From: Candidatus Oscillochloris fontis
GTDB lineage: Bacteria > Chloroflexota > Chloroflexia > Chloroflexales > Chloroflexaceae
DNA: 64,000 nt
NCBI RefSeq assembly: GCF_004138135.1
Contig: NZ_RYFD01000023.1
Span: forward strand, 1 to 64,000
Direction: 5' to 3'
The notes under the pieces were generated by a model that was not told the DNA's origin, ran no database searches, and saw only the letters and a program-made list of their open reading frames with translations. Shown piece after piece: positions 24,308 through 60,147 of this stretch (position 1 is its first letter; the number at the start of each line of letters is the position of its first letter). Position numbers and translations under genes: made by a program.

Positions 24308-24524
24308 CAAGGTACGTTGATCGTGGCGAGGCACACTACACACCTAGACCGATGCGCTCAGCCCGCCCTTCTGGTAGCATCATTGGCGATCCGACAATAC
24401 ACGCGGATGCGAAAACACCGTTCCGGTTGGTAGTCCGGACCCACGGAGCCCAAATCGCGCTGTGGCAGTATCCTTCCCCTCCAGGATGTCCAGCACCCGC
24501 AGATAGGCAACTGCGGAGGGACGC

Positions 24525-53803: not shown

Positions 53804-54182
53804 TCACACCATCTCCAAAAAATTGGGCGGCGCAAAGATATTGCGCCGCTTCAACGGCTCCGGCGACTCGTTGAGGCAGAGATCGCGGGTGAAACCGGGG
53901 CGTTCGGCCCAGGGCAATGCAAAAAATTGGTTCACCGAGCGATCCGCTGCTGGTCGTCCAAGTGGGTGGTAGTTGATTGAATCTTCCAGCCAACAACTCA
54001 ACCAATGCAGCGGCAGCCACAAGGATGCGCGGATCATCGGTTTCTGGCTTGGGCATCAGTGCGAAACGTGGTCGTTCCCGTAGCCACGCTTGGACATAGA
54101 GACGGAGAAGAAGCGCATCATACCCCAAAAGCGCTACCGCCATCTCACCTAAGTGACTTGATGTGGTCAGCGTACTAGTCAT
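53804..54182 (-). pseudogene. Frameshifted small protein next to the nucleotidyltransferase
   Basis: The frame from ATG 54182 reads well for about 60 residues (GYDALLLRLYVQAWLRERPR ... LVELLAGRFNQLPPTW). After that a different frame continues naturally (FFALPWAERPGFTRDLCLNE ... APPNFLEMV, ending at 53804). A single-base indel near 53985-54000 would join them into about 125 residues. It starts 8 bp inside the end of the upstream gene. Function unknown. A degraded copy of its last codons lies at 60228-60260. A sequencing error is an alternative. Confidence 0.6.
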
Positions 54183-54675
54183 TTCGATCCTCCCAGAGCA
54201 TATCGAACGCATACTGCGCTTTCAGATGCGTGACATAGGGCTGAACTGCATCCCACAACGCTTCTTTCGAGGGATAGTGTGCGGCGAGATCATTCAACAC
54301 AACCAGTGCATCAGCCTCATCCTGCTCATCGCGCCACGCCGAAAGCTTCATTGCGAGTAACTGCTCCGCGCTGATCTGATAGACCTTGATCCCTGGTGCA
54401 TCAATCAACAGCGGGCCGTAGCTCATGTCCTGCATAAAGCCCTTCGCCCCATCATTCAGCCAATCGGCGGGCAACCCCAACTCACGGGCGACAATCGTGG
54501 CCCAAGCGCGTGTCTCACGGCGCTCCGGCGGGGTGACGAAAAAGGCATCCACATCCTGGGTCGAAAGACGAGCTTGGTAGCGCAATACTAACGCCGCACC
54601 TCCAACCACCACCAGCGTGAGGGTGTGTCCCTGCTCGGCGGCCAGCGCCCCTAGACGTGTCAGCGCCTGAGTCAT
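54175..54675 (-). CDS. Nucleotidyltransferase-like protein (DUF6036/AbiEii-like)
   Basis: 166 residues. LVVVGGAALVLRYQARLSTQ followed by DVDAFF gives the GG...DxD pattern of polymerase-beta-type nucleotidyltransferases, as in many toxin or DUF6036 proteins. QLLAMKLSAWRDEQDEADAL is the conserved downstream region with a helical end. The gene overlaps the start of the frameshifted gene by 8 bp, forming a two-gene module like many toxin-antitoxin pairs. A partial copy lies at 60262-60388. A palindromic element directly precedes the ATG. Confidence 0.78.
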   Translation of the reverse strand: MTQALTRLGALAAEQGHTLTLVVVGGAALVLRYQARLSTQDVDAFFVTPPERRETRAWATIVARELGLPADWLNDGAKGFMQDMSYGPLLIDAPGIKVYQISAEQLLAMKLSAWRDEQDEADALVVLNDLAAHYPSKEALWDAVQPYVTHLKAQYAFDMLWEDRND

Positions 54676-54681
54676 AGAATT

Positions 54682-55047
54682 AGCCTCATTCCTCCCGCCC
54701 GTTTACGGGCGGGAGGAATGAGGCTTGTGCGGCCTCACTCCTTGGTAGGTGCTTACCACCGCACCGCGTTCAGCGGTGTGGGGCAACCACGTGGGTATGC
54801 TATACTGTCCATGTGCGAAGGCACAATTCGGGGCACTGCACCCGTGGACCCGGTTTGCAGCACGTGACCAACTGAACCTTGCTGGTTCTGTCGAGGAATC
54901 CTTCGGCAGGTAAAACGTTCAGGGTCAGATGCCCGTGCATCTCCCATCGCTGTCGGGTTCGCCCGACAGGGCACCCGTAAACGTGCCGTACTGCTCGGAT
55001 GCCGATTCGTCGGTAGCGCCAGAGCAAAGCCCCCGCCTTGAGGCGGG
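54682..55047. ncRNA. Palindrome-bounded element with a strongly folded candidate RNA
   Basis: A perfect 21-bp-arm hairpin (54682-54725, AGCCTCATTCCTCCCGCCCG arm) bounds one side and CCCGCC-TTGA-GGCGGG (55032-55047) the other. Between them lie hairpins TGTGC/GCACA (54812-54825), CTGCA/TGCAG (54836-54860), CTGTCGAGGA/TCCTTCGGCAG (54888-54909), AGATGC/GCATCT (54927-54942) and CTGTCGGG-TTCG-CCCGACAG (54950-54969). No convincing protein is present. The layout recalls IS200/IS605-related elements that carry omega/HEARO-type RNA without a nuclease gene. Strand is undecided: a -10 (TGCTATACT, 54798-54806) reads right, while the promoter at 55218-55246 reads left. No gene is seen in 55048-55217. Confidence 0.5.
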
Positions 55048-55217
55048 TGGTGGTTTACTATAGCGCGATCCAGCCCACGGCGAGCGTCACCCGCGCTAAG
55101 CAAAAAACGCGACGCGACAAGAACGACGGTTAGTGTAGCGAAAAGAGCCGCAACAAGTAATGAGGGTAGCATCAGGGTTTCCTCTGGCGCTATAATTCAT
55201 ATACCTTGCTCGACTTG

Positions 55218-55246
55218 ATTATAGAACATATGTTTGTATTTGTCAA
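55218..55246 (-). promoter_or_regulatory. Consensus promoter with GAACATATGTTT box
   Basis: Minus strand: TTGACA, 17 bp, TATAAT, a perfect sigma-70 consensus. The spacer (plus strand 55224-55235) is GAACATATGTTT, close to the GAAC-N4-GTTC box bound by LexA in many non-proteobacteria. It points left toward the structured element and the nucleotidyltransferase at 54675. Confidence 0.8.
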
Positions 55247-55259
55247 TCATCATAAAGGC

Positions 55260-55372
55260 AGTAACTGTTCACACTTGGGGTAAAAGAAACCTCGTGTTGA
55301 CGCAAAGGGTTGTTGCAGGCTTTGCGCCTTTGCGTCAAAACCTGGAGGCTAGGAGAAGTGTGAACAGTTACT
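55260..55372. mobile_element. Miniature inverted-repeat element, family A, copy 3 (intact ends)
   Basis: Perfect 17-bp terminal inverted repeats (AGTAACTGTTCACACTT and complement) enclose the GACGCAAAGG...CCTTTGCGTC inner arms. It is flanked by AAAGGC (55254-55259 and 55373-55378). The right duplicate runs into the ribosome-binding site (GCGGAG) of the next gene. This is the best-preserved copy in the window. Confidence 0.85.
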
Positions 55373-55389: not shown

Positions 55390-58300
55390 ATGGCTGCGCT
55401 GACCCTCGGTGTATTTGCCTTGCGCCTTATCAATGCCTTTCGCTCATGGAACGATCCCACCCACGGGTCAGCCAATACCTATTTTTCCGGCAATCTCGCC
55501 CGCCATGGTGGCGATGAACTGCGTCTGCGGGCTTCATTGATTAAAGATCATCTGCTCACCCAGGGTTTCGGCTATGATCCGGCTGCGATTGAGATCGAAG
55601 CCGCTGATCGTTCCGATGTTGTCCTCTATGCTGGAAGTAGGAGTGACCGCCGCCCAGTAGCCATTGTTGAAACTAAGAAGTCGGGATTTGGGCATTTGCT
55701 TGCCACGCGCCTTGCGACAGGCGAAACTCCACCCCAGCAGTTGGCGCGTTATGTGCGCTTACGTGGTCTCTATCTTGGTGTCCTCACCAATGGCAATATC
55801 TGGCACTTTTTCGATCTTGGGGTGAGTTTACAACCGCGTGCCACGATCACCCTGACCGAACTTGATGCACTGTTGGCGGGAAGTACGACTCCGGCGCAGG
55901 CAGATGCGGCCCTTGCAGCGCATCCTTCGCTCGCCAATGCACTGCTCATTGCCCAGGATATGCTGGATGCCACGAAGTGGACAACCGTTGATGGGTATTT
56001 AGCCGAACTCAATGATGTAGGCCAGTTTCATAGCATTGCCTTAACAACGCCTGAGGCACGTAGCGGGTTGGTCCAGCAGATTGCACAGCGACTTGGCCTA
56101 CTGCGTGAAACCATTAGTGCCCAGTTTGCCCTTTTGTACCAGGATTTGACTACCTATACCCAGCTTTGTAGCCAGATCAGCGCAACCGATCCACGGCTCT
56201 ATGCGGATCGCGTCGTGGATGAGATTGCGCTCCTGGTTGGGCAGGTGACTGAACCGGATCTGCGTGACGCATTGCTTACATTGGTACACGACCTCGTGGC
56301 TGAATTTGAAGCTACCGGCGATGCTGATTGGTTCTATGCGACCTATATCGTACGCGCCCAGTCCGTCTTAGCCTATCAACAATCAGTGTTACCCGGTATG
56401 GCTGTTCCTGTTAGCAGTAGCCCAGTTGCAATACCGAAGCCTGATACGCTCCTAGCGCTGCTTTCTACCCATTTCACCTATATCACTGCCCTCGGCGAGT
56501 CCTATGCAGCATCGGTGCGATTACAACGCGCCTATAGCGAATGGCAACGCCGTGTACGCGGTGTCTATGCCGATCCCGCCCGTGAGTTTTGCCTCCAAAC
56601 CGGCTATATTCACTTTGTGCGCCTCTTCTTCGTGCGCGTGTGTGAAGACTATGGGCTGATTCAGCGCCGTATCTCCGATGGCCCTTTTAGCCAGTTCGAT
56701 GCCTACCGCCGTGCCTTGCTCGCTGGTGTGCGTGATGTCTATCAACGCCTCTTGCACGAGACCTTTGAGCGTGCCGCGAATGTCTACCACAACTTCTTCA
56801 GTCGCGCCGATCTCTATGATTGGTTCCAACTTGATGAGCGTAGCATCTTGGGGATTCTTGCGGCTCTCAATCGCTACAACTTCCAGCAACTTGATTTTGA
56901 CCTGCTAGGGCATATCTATAACGAGGGCTACATCGAGGAACAACGCCGCAGTGAGCACGGCCAATTCTATACCCCGCATGCGGTTGTGACGTACATGGTA
57001 GATAGCCTGAATCTCTTTCCGGTACGCCATGCTTCCGATACCCACCCCCTAACCACTGAGGAACGGGCGGCGATCAACCTCTCGGTCATTGATGTCTCGT
57101 GTGGGAGCGGTTCGTTTCTTGTCGAGATCGCAGCACGCAAAGCGGCCATTCTGCATGTGATGGTGCAACAGGCGCTCCTCCAACCGAGCGAGGCGATAGA
57201 ATACCTCGTTGATACGCTCGCTGGGATTGATATTAGTCCCTTTGCCTGCTATCTGGCCGAGATCAACCTGATGATGCGCTGTATGCCGTTCCTGCGCGAT
57301 ACCACGAGCGGTAGCCTGATTGCCGCCCATAGTATCAGTCGGATTCATATCTACTGCGGGGATACGTTGGAGCCAACCCGGCGTGAGTTGGTCGAGTATC
57401 ACCTGGGCCATAATGCCTCGGCACTTGGGGCGAGTGTGCCGATTGTTGAGCCGGTGCGCCTCTCTGATGAGGAGCGCCGCTTACAATCAATGAAAGATCG
57501 CAAGGCGACTCCAGGGCGGCTCATGCAGGGCAAACAGGGCTTCGATGTGGTGATCGGCAATCCACCCTACGTGAAGGCGAACGAGAGCCAGGAGACAAGC
57601 ACCTATCGCCATCAGATTCGTAGTTGGGGCATCTACCCGGTGCGCGATAAATGGGATCTGTTTGTCCCCTTTGTGTATCGCAATCTTGGGTTTTTGGCCG
57701 AAAACGGCTGGATGATCCTGATTACTACGAATGCTATCGAAACCGAAGGCTATGCCAAGCCGTTACGTGCCGATCTGAGCCGGTATTGGCTCGAACAGAT
57801 TGATTTCTTTCCCCGCCTAAAGTTGTTTGGCAACGATGTGGGTGTGATGAGTACGATCTTCAAACTCCAAAAGCGGGCGGCACTCAATCCAAGCCTGCGC
57901 CGCCGTACCCATACCGCCATCACCTGTACGAGCTATACCGAGGCTCCCATCAATCAGGCACTCGGCCCGGAAGTTCTCTTCCGCGCCAACTATATGGCTC
58001 CGCCACCAGAACTGCATACCTGCTGCGTGCCGCTCTGTGCGATTGCGTATATTGGGACGGGTCTTGAAGCGCATAGTCATGAACGTGAAGATACGATTAT
58101 CCATGGACAGCGGGTAAAAGCCTTTGATCTGGATGACAGTTTTCGGATAAGTATTGATGGGCTTTCATCTGGCGAAGCAACATATTTCACAGATCGCGGC
58201 GTGTTGGGTGCTGAAGTGCAAGCCTACTATCTGACCCGGCAGCGCTATGTCGCTTATGATTATATGAAAGCGAAGATGCGCCGCCCCCGCATCCCCGAAC

Positions 58301-59205
58301 TCTTCCGCACCCCCAAGAAGTTGCTGTTGGGTGAAACATCGGGCGGCTACTACGACACCGACCAACTCTTTGCCAACCACAGTGTGCAGGTGGTTGTACC
58401 GTGGCACGCCCTGAACGTAGATGAACGTGGGGTCAAGAAGGTACGCAACAACTCAATGGCCATATCCGGCTACACCGATCTGGAGACCATCGCCAAACTC
58501 TTTGATCTACGCTACATTCTGGCCGTGATCAATAGCGACTATATGCGGCGCTACCTGCTGTCCAACCAAGCCCAGGGTACTCGTGAAGGCCGCATCTACC
58601 CGGATGTGTGGAAACAAATGCCGGTCAAAGTGATAGACCCTAGCCAACAAGCACGCATCGGAGCACTGGTAGAGCATATCCAGGCGCTTCAGCACACCCT
58701 TCAATCTGCACCCAACGCCCAGGATGTCTACGCAACATGGCAACAAGATGGCAAACTGACTGGCAAGATCAGCGACTTCATCATTGATGGCAGCCTCAAC
58801 ACCTTTGGCGCATTGAACGAAACCCGCAAGAGTCGCTACCTCCGTGACGCTCAACAGGTCACACTCTTCAACCAGACCGGCATCAGCGTCAATGATTCCG
58901 CCAATATCCCCATCCTGGACTACTTCTGCTGGTATTGCAATGAGATTGATCCGGGCATACGTGGATACCCCTGGTCACACCTACGCAGCAGCATCCCTGT
59001 ACCACGCAACCTGAGCGAGATTGAAGCCCTGTTGAGCGCCATTGAGGCCATAGGGAGTACGCGAGAAGGGATCATCGCTGCAATAGGCACCCAGCGCAAT
59101 GAGATCGAAACAGCGGTGGTAGAAGCCTATACCAACGAATGCGCCGAAACCCTCTGGCTGACGATCCAGAGACTGGAAGCCACTCGTGCAGATGATGAGG
59201 ATTAA
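55390..59205 (+). CDS. Type IIG-like restriction-methylase fusion, copy 2
   Basis: 1271 residues. Nuclease motif: Asp76 in RSDVVLY and Glu94/Lys96 in VAIVETKKSG. Methyltransferase motif I VIDVSCGSGSF (near 568) and catalytic NPPY (near 724) follow. The C-terminal part (about 850-1130) contains a TaqI-like target-recognition segment (EGRIYPDVWKQMPV). It differs widely from the copy at 44537, so it should recognise another sequence. GGAG lies 8 bp before the ATG, contributed by the flank of the miniature element. No separate specificity subunit is nearby. Confidence 0.9.
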   Translation: MAALTLGVFALRLINAFRSWNDPTHGSANTYFSGNLARHGGDELRLRASLIKDHLLTQGFGYDPAAIEIEAADRSDVVLYAGSRSDRRPVAIVETKKSGFGHLLATRLATGETPPQQLARYVRLRGLYLGVLTNGNIWHFFDLGVSLQPRATITLTELDALLAGSTTPAQADAALAAHPSLANALLIAQDMLDATKWTTVDGYLAELNDVGQFHSIALTTPEARSGLVQQIAQRLGLLRETISAQFALLYQDLTTYTQLCSQISATDPRLYADRVVDEIALLVGQVTEPDLRDALLTLVHDLVAEFEATGDADWFYATYIVRAQSVLAYQQSVLPGMAVPVSSSPVAIPKPDTLLALLSTHFTYITALGESYAASVRLQRAYSEWQRRVRGVYADPAREFCLQTGYIHFVRLFFVRVCEDYGLIQRRISDGPFSQFDAYRRALLAGVRDVYQRLLHETFERAANVYHNFFSRADLYDWFQLDERSILGILAALNRYNFQQLDFDLLGHIYNEGYIEEQRRSEHGQFYTPHAVVTYMVDSLNLFPVRHASDTHPLTTEERAAINLSVIDVSCGSGSFLVEIAARKAAILHVMVQQALLQPSEAIEYLVDTLAGIDISPFACYLAEINLMMRCMPFLRDTTSGSLIAAHSISRIHIYCGDTLEPTRRELVEYHLGHNASALGASVPIVEPVRLSDEERRLQSMKDRKATPGRLMQGKQGFDVVIGNPPYVKANESQETSTYRHQIRSWGIYPVRDKWDLFVPFVYRNLGFLAENGWMILITTNAIETEGYAKPLRADLSRYWLEQIDFFPRLKLFGNDVGVMSTIFKLQKRAALNPSLRRRTHTAITCTSYTEAPINQALGPEVLFRANYMAPPPELHTCCVPLCAIAYIGTGLEAHSHEREDTIIHGQRVKAFDLDDSFRISIDGLSSGEATYFTDRGVLGAEVQAYYLTRQRYVAYDYMKAKMRRPRIPELFRTPKKLLLGETSGGYYDTDQLFANHSVQVVVPWHALNVDERGVKKVRNNSMAISGYTDLETIAKLFDLRYILAVINSDYMRRYLLSNQAQGTREGRIYPDVWKQMPVKVIDPSQQARIGALVEHIQALQHTLQSAPNAQDVYATWQQDGKLTGKISDFIIDGSLNTFGALNETRKSRYLRDAQQVTLFNQTGISVNDSANIPILDYFCWYCNEIDPGIRGYPWSHLRSSIPVPRNLSEIEALLSAIEAIGSTREGIIAAIGTQRNEIETAVVEAYTNECAETLWLTIQRLEATRADDED

Positions 59206-59247
59206 GAGGGGTTCTGGCGCTATAATGCACCTACCTTGACCAATTTT

Positions 59248-59276
59248 ATTGTGGAACTTATGATGGTATTTGTCGA
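59248..59276 (-). promoter_or_regulatory. Degraded copy of the shared promoter box
   Basis: Minus strand TCGACA, 17 bp, CACAAT, with GAACTTATGATG in the spacer on the plus strand. The key positions have decayed, and it lies over the start of the nucleotidyltransferase gene. It is probably a relic carried along when this block was duplicated. A rightward TATAAT sits at 59221-59226. Confidence 0.5.
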
Positions 59277-60147
59277 TCATGATCCCCATATCATCACAAT
59301 CCTGCGCTCACTATCACCTGGGCGCAAATTAGCGTTGGCCCGCGACATGAACCGCATGGCCGACCGACTGGCCCTAGCCGGTATTCAGCGGCGTAAGCCA
59401 GACACAACACCACACGAGTTAGGCTATGCCCTTGCTCTCCAACGCCTAGCACCTGAACACTATGCGCACGGGGAAGCCATACTGAAGGGATTAGCACTAA
59501 TGCCCACCCCAGTAGATCCGTTGGCCCTCGCACTACGCATCGGAGCCATGCTTGATACCCAAGCCATCCCCTATCTCGTGGTTGGTTCGGTGGCTGCGGT
59601 GGTTCACGGCGAGTACCGCATGACCCGCGATCTCGATCTCGTACTGAATCTGGCTCCTGGGTCGGTGGGAAGGTTGGAGCAGGCACTCCACACGGAGTTC
59701 AGCTTTCTGCCCAGCGACATCACCGATGCTATGCGGCGGCTCCCCACGGCCCGATCTGATTGGCAGCAGCGGGCGGGGTTTTGCGCTTATGACAACACAA
59801 CCGGCTTCCAGATTGACATCTACCTCGCCTCAGGTCGCCCCTTCGAGGTAGCCCAGTTCCAGCGGGCGCAGATCGTCAATCTTCCCGGCGAGCCAGGTGG
59901 GATACTGCGCGTCGCCAGCGCCGAAGACACCGTCTTGGCCAAATTAGAGTGGTACGCCCTCGCCCCCTCCGACCGCCAGTGGCGTGATGTGCAGGCCATT
60001 CTGCGGGTGCAGGAGGATACGCTCGACCGGGGCTACCTAGACCAATGGGCAGACGAACTCAACCTCGCCGATCTGCTGGCGTGGGCACTGCGCGGCCAAC
60101 AACCTCCCCAACCCGGCGCGGAGCCGCGTCAGCAGCGGTTGTTCTGA
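59260..60147 (+). CDS. Nucleotidyltransferase-domain protein
   Basis: About 295 residues. An N-terminal helical domain (about 1-85, with SPGRKLALARDMNRMADRLA) precedes a nucleotidyltransferase fold: PYLVVGSVAAVVHGEYRMTR, then DLDLVL with the metal-binding DxD. The C-terminus has SAEDTVLAKLEWY, typical of AbiEii-like/DUF6036 nucleotidyltransferases. The frame can start at TTG 59236, but ATG 59260 or 59263 is more likely. It is 54 bp after the Type IIG gene. A role as toxin or defence effector is possible. A fragment of its 5' end lies at 48385. Confidence 0.78.
   Translation: MMVFVDHDPHIITILRSLSPGRKLALARDMNRMADRLALAGIQRRKPDTTPHELGYALALQRLAPEHYAHGEAILKGLALMPTPVDPLALALRIGAMLDTQAIPYLVVGSVAAVVHGEYRMTRDLDLVLNLAPGSVGRLEQALHTEFSFLPSDITDAMRRLPTARSDWQQRAGFCAYDNTTGFQIDIYLASGRPFEVAQFQRAQIVNLPGEPGGILRVASAEDTVLAKLEWYALAPSDRQWRDVQAILRVQEDTLDRGYLDQWADELNLADLLAWALRGQQPPQPGAEPRQQRLF

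Follow-up and report, generated by a model that had tools for sequence, protein, structure and literature searches.

The question raised by this locus is what a short, hairpin-rich segment without a plausible protein represents within a 64-kb window (the whole stretch of DNA analyzed, 64,000 nucleotides) of Candidatus Oscillochloris fontis. The initial annotation proposed an IS200/IS605-mobilized element carrying an omega- or HEARO-like guide RNA. Mobilization of the IS200/IS605 kind and a guide RNA of the omega type were both supported by copies, empty sites, shared ends and covariation. The segment is very probably a non-autonomous, guide-RNA-only IS200/IS605 element of the PATE (palindrome-associated transposable element) type, which comprises two ends and a TnpB-type omegaRNA and would be served in trans by TnpA and TnpB. 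Its parts and surroundings are listed in Table 1.

Table 1. Features of the element and of its surroundings, with positions in the window.
Feature	Position	Strand	Basis or remark
Downstream part of interrupted host gene, DUF6036 nucleotidyltransferase domain	54175-54675	-	Starts at the ATG of TCAT
TCAT, target/transposon-associated motif, left of the element	54672-54675	+	Left ends of copies
Whole tnpB-less IS200/IS605-type element, 383 bp	54676-55058	+	Bounds from 20+ copies and empty sites in relatives
Left end, 82-85% common to tnpB elements L048 and L053; also tnpA element in G004	54676-54792	+	
Left-end palindrome, 21-nt arms, 100% complementary	54682-54725	+	DNA fold z -9.6
Extended -10 (TGCTATACT), likely RNA promoter	54798-54806	+	Sequence and alignment A4
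Predicted omegaRNA scaffold	54812-55058	+	Putative 5' start
5'-domain helices 2 and 3	54875-54909	+	Present in tnpB-less elements, mostly absent from tnpB genes
Helix 4	54927-54942	+	
Helices 5-8	54950-55026	+	Common to tnpB 3' ends
Right-end hairpin and terminus TTTAC (helix 9)	55029-55058	+	Aligned copies, fold
Predicted 16-nt guide, host sequence TATAGCGCGATCCAGC	55059-55074	+	By analogy with ISDra2 reRNA (PMC8612924)
First 38 codons of same host gene (hydrophobic N-terminus), severed by insertion	55059-55172	-	G066 ortholog
Host-gene consensus promoter TTGACA-17-TATAAT, perfect	55218-55246	-	Antisense to the element

Two strong palindromes with small hairpins between them had been described, and all of these were present, but the right hairpin (55029-55051; fold z -2.6) was weaker than the left palindrome. 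The small hairpins comprised a stem GTCGAGG...CCTTCGGC (54888-54909), TGTCGGG-TTCG-CCCGACA (54951-54968), GGCAC/GTGCC (54970-54987), and CCGA-TTCG-TCGG with a nested stem enclosing it (54992-55026); two of them carried TTCG loops. The window contains four further palindromes with arms of at least 15 nt, and a palindrome by itself is therefore nothing unusual in this sequence. No plausible protein was found inside the element, in agreement with the initial annotation. The open reading frames were of 75 and 139 aa, both on the minus strand, the latter being the host gene reading into the element, and no coding frame was conserved in relatives.

The bounds first given, 54682-55047, were corrected by the aligned ends of copies. 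A second full-length copy in the same genome (G000:C37) was 93% identical to the window element, and the copies C92 and C122 of this genome shared only the right half with it (72%). Full-length copies in the sister species were 87, 78, and 76% identical. Of the five other genomes in the genus, four contained further copies, which were numerous in three; they often lay at contig ends, as is expected of a repeat. The left end was also used to scan the GTDB genomes, which yielded 28 stretches; several were the same sister-species contigs, and all belonged to uncultured Oscillochloris or Chloroflexales ZM16-3. With a search pattern that did not require TCAT, this motif preceded all 30 distinct left ends, and TTCAT preceded 27 of them. 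The aligned right ends terminated in TTTAC, or in CTTAC or CTGAC in related subfamilies. A second, more distant tnpB-less group (L145, L146, L148, L150, L151, L152, and L117) was observed in other genera of the order; its members share the 3' scaffold, and their right ends terminate in CTGAC.

Empty sites were found for two copies. Once the element was removed, the flanks of the C37 copy formed an unbroken alignment to the hemW/lipA region in G004 (72%) and in G002; this copy was located exactly at the hemW start codon, and the site was uninterrupted in both genomes. At the window copy, the host gene had an uninterrupted ortholog of 216 aa in genome G066. The comparison with empty sites indicated that the element landed 3' of TCAT and that no target duplication accompanied the insertion. 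Near-terminal palindromes were present and terminal inverted repeats were absent, as in IS200/IS605 (PATE) elements. The copies, the empty sites and the lack of target duplication show that the element is mobile, and it inserts after (T)TCAT.

The left end tied the element to tnpA- and tnpB-bearing siblings. It was 82-85% identical to the left ends of two complete tnpB elements (L048 and L053), and at G004:C409 the same left end directly adjoined the C-terminus (HVH, SPSYDVG) of a Y1 transposase encoded on the opposite strand. The same arrangement was found at C154 in G004. Thus the left end is common to elements bearing a Y1 TnpA, the contigs of G004 ending inside the tnpA element. The genome of the window has full-length tnpB genes, and its assembly yielded no convincing TnpA of the IS605 type. 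It is therefore doubtful that the element can still move in this species, where it may now be stranded. The sole, weak Y1-type match in this genome (L044 1174-1695) resembled, by eye, a REP-associated tyrosine transposase (RAYT), and the repeats next to it were partly masked as N.

The element encodes a conserved folded RNA. The predicted fold of the plus-strand RNA 54812-55058, at -111.2 kcal/mol, was more stable than those of 200 shuffled sequences (z -3.3). The consensus structure from a plain MAFFT alignment (A1), which comprised 17 tnpB-less copies, had 52 pairs, 23 of which showed two-sided compensatory changes; a terminal two-pair helix (columns 1-2 with 208-209) was probably spurious. 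When all 60 matches were aligned (A3), 93% of cells paired against 34-44% with partners slid by 1-3 columns, but this alignment was fitted to the model and its pair counts lean towards the structure, which makes the MAFFT count the safer evidence. The alignment of the 5' domain (A4) gave weak structure only, and it contained a -10-like motif at a like position in other copies; the extended -10 TGCTATACT is likely the promoter of the RNA. No Rfam family covered the RNA, and a low threshold added only spurious microRNA matches on the palindrome and one snoRNA match outside the element. The check that had been suggested for the locus, further copies with covariation, was thus passed with many copies and strong covariation.

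The TnpA of IS200/IS605 elements recognizes palindromes at their ends, and the left and right palindromes are of this type. The folds could accordingly be single-stranded DNA hairpins that serve TnpA only and have no function as RNA. This is very unlikely, for helices 2-8 lie between the ends, contain G-U pairs and covary, and the 3' part is common to RNAs embedded in tnpB genes.

The kind of RNA was identified with a covariance model (R1) that was built solely from tnpB-less copies. R1 had matches in 16 of 60 genomes of the order. The top matches were tnpB-less elements, and the second tier consisted largely of tnpB 3' ends, about 20 in number. E-values were 1e-30 for L056 and ~1e-18 for L014 and L015, which are in the genome of the window, and the matches to L010, L048, and L053 were weak. 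A homologous structure is thus found at the 3' end of tnpB genes. Since a model from tnpB-less copies alone finds these 3' ends, the RNA is a TnpB-type omegaRNA and not HEARO. The tnpB gene usually supplies the guide RNA of TnpB, and no tnpB was found inside this element.

Protein-less HEARO elements exist, and a HEARO-like guide RNA was among the readings put forward in the initial annotation. The element would then be of the IscB/IsrB type, with its guide on the 5' side. A covariance search of the whole genome with RF02033 gave no match at E<=1, an IscB profile search of the genome gave nothing above the cut-off, and the 3' domain is the one seen in tnpB genes. The null result with RF02033 and the 3' domain refute this identity, to which we assign practically no probability.

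The two halves of the RNA had different affinities. The right end of the element was 98% identical over its last 88 nt, and 97% identical over 96 nt, to the 3' end of tnpB L056 in G004, and it was homologous to the 3' ends of L014 and L015. The 3' domains of these two, the closest TnpBs of the genome, were only 66-69% identical to the window element, so their use of its RNA is uncertain. The 3' half of L025 was 86-89% identical to tnpB L014/L015. The 5' half of the window copy was 70% identical to L003, which belongs to another subfamily in the same genome, 73-77% identical to copies in another genus, and 25% identical to tnpB genes, which is the chance level. Helices 5-9 were 92-98% paired in L014-like tnpB rows. 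In tnpB rows, helix 3 was largely missing (7-16% paired) and helix 2 about half missing, so that the RNAs embedded in tnpB have a different 5' half; both helices were present in tnpB-less rows, including rows outside model building (84-88%). In all, the 5' RNA domain was ~70% conserved among tnpB-less elements. A tree of the short RNAs was poorly resolved and did not cleanly separate tnpB-less from tnpB-bearing copies, which is explained when the two halves are compared separately.

These comparisons bear on a simpler explanation, that the element is a dead remnant of a tnpB element after internal deletion, which kept its ends by chance and whose RNA is non-functional. PATEs that formed when IS605-type elements lost their core have been described (PMC3119063, PMC7290912), and no TnpA was found in the genome of the window. 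A remnant would show tnpB sequence and no compensation. However, the 5' domain stands at 25% identity to tnpB coding sequence and at ~70% between tnpB-less copies of different subfamilies and genera, and it contains two-sided compensatory changes, so this explanation is unlikely. Because the 5' domain is their own and the 3' domain matches that of a partner TnpB, the tnpB-less copies are not simple deletions. We infer that their 3' ends were exchanged by recombination.

The perfect promoter reported to face the element does face it, but it lies on the minus strand, is antisense to the RNA and belongs to the interrupted host gene. In the G066 ortholog, a hydrophobic N-terminus is followed by the nucleotidyltransferase part. 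The element interrupts the host gene in frame, directly ahead of an internal ATG (ATA / ATG ACT), and leaves 38 codons upstream of itself and the whole DUF6036 domain downstream. Several other features were observed nearby. The copy at 55183-55253 of a 71-bp direct repeat contains the consensus promoter; with the other copy (59213-59283, ~79% identical) it brackets a large restriction-modification-like gene of 1271 aa (55390-59205). Upstream of this gene there was a 113-bp palindromic repeat (55260-55372) with 17-nt perfect arms, a MITE- or REP-like family with ~50 matches in the genome, some of them as tandem pairs. Elsewhere in the window, an azaaromatic (yjdF) riboswitch was detected at 24399-24509 (Rfam RF01764, 68.5 bits).

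TTCAT is the reverse complement of ATGAA. In the right flanks of 22 subfamily copies, read on the minus strand, a Shine-Dalgarno-like motif was found 3-11 nt from the junction in 10, and in about one copy in other 9-nt bins; among random TTCAT sites, 16 of 250 (~6%) had such a motif (p 4e-7). In many cases, then, the insertion probably came between an ATG and its ribosome-binding site. In 8 of 30 copies a long ORF began at TCAT, and since 20% of random TTCAT sites pass the same test, it was set aside as uninformative on start-codon insertion. Three other copies (L066, L002, and L004) were positioned exactly at start codons, which belong to a P22_AR_N protein gene, hemW, and an alpha/beta hydrolase gene, respectively. 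Read on the minus strand, the left end itself has GAGG, 8 nt and ATG, which lie within its own hairpin. This could possibly act as a replacement Shine-Dalgarno sequence, and rescue, target preference or survivorship might each account for the insertions at start codons. In the part of the literature covered, nothing relevant was found on TTCAT-type TnpB motifs or on start-codon insertion.

The element lies at an ATG within a host gene, and many copies lie at likely start codons, which would also suit a domesticated cis-regulator or sRNA of the adjacent host gene. We regard this as extremely unlikely, because the copies adjoin unrelated genes and relatives have the sites without the insertion, which is the pattern of a mobile element.

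For the guide-RNA-only element, a cycle can be proposed in which mobility at TTCAT, a guide in the flank and TnpB cutting of a restored TCAT are taken by analogy from ISDra2 (PMC8612924). Transcription of the RNA would be driven by the internal extended -10 and would continue past the right end into ~16 nt of the flank (55059-55074), which would serve as the guide. The Y1 TnpA of a sibling would excise the element and insert it as single-stranded DNA at TTCAT. The TnpB of a sibling, together with the RNA of the element, would then cut the site that excision has emptied, recognized by TCAT and a guide match, and repair from the sister copy would restore the element. In such a cycle both TnpA and TnpB must come from other elements. 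We infer both the expression of the RNA and the activity in trans of TnpA and TnpB on the element.

A wider reading is offered tentatively, and we lean somewhat against it: a long-lived lineage of guide-RNA-only transposons may exist in the Chloroflexales, with its own promoter and its own conserved 5' RNA domain. It would swap its 3' end with that of the resident TnpB/TnpA element in order to gain the services of that element, and would land preferentially at start codons with a replacement Shine-Dalgarno sequence from its left end. If mobile protein-less omegaRNAs do track a partner TnpB by their 3' part and keep a separate 5' part, a guide RNA can turn into a parasite of its nuclease. Such a natural two-part RNA lets one ask which half TnpB needs. 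If the preference for start codons is functional, it would allow a transposon to do less damage to its host.

Both protein-less IS605-type elements (PATEs) and TnpB omegaRNAs are already known. The element resembles HEARO/IscB omegaRNA (RF02033) in that protein-less copies of a guide-RNA element exist, and differs from it in sequence and structure, which do not match, and in having the guide at the opposite end. In ISDra2, the structured reRNA/omegaRNA of TnpB ends at the right end, the guide comes from the right flank, and the target motif is the insertion motif (PMC8612924). The window element is predicted to be alike in all three, and differs in motif (TTCAT instead of TTGAT) and in origin: the ISDra2 RNA derives from the tnpB 3' end, whereas the window element has no tnpB and its 5' half is a separate domain. 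PATEs, known from Haloquadratum and Halanaerobium, are likewise short and protein-less, with near-terminal palindromes, no target duplication, and ends related to IS605-type elements, and they are presumed to be mobilized in trans; the available parts of their descriptions include no guide RNA and explain some of them as core deletions (PMC3119063, PMC7290912). In contrast, the window element has a covarying omegaRNA whose 5' domain is not derived from tnpB. Within the part of the literature covered, the combination of a dedicated 5' domain with a protein-less IS605-type element and a TnpB omegaRNA appears to be new.
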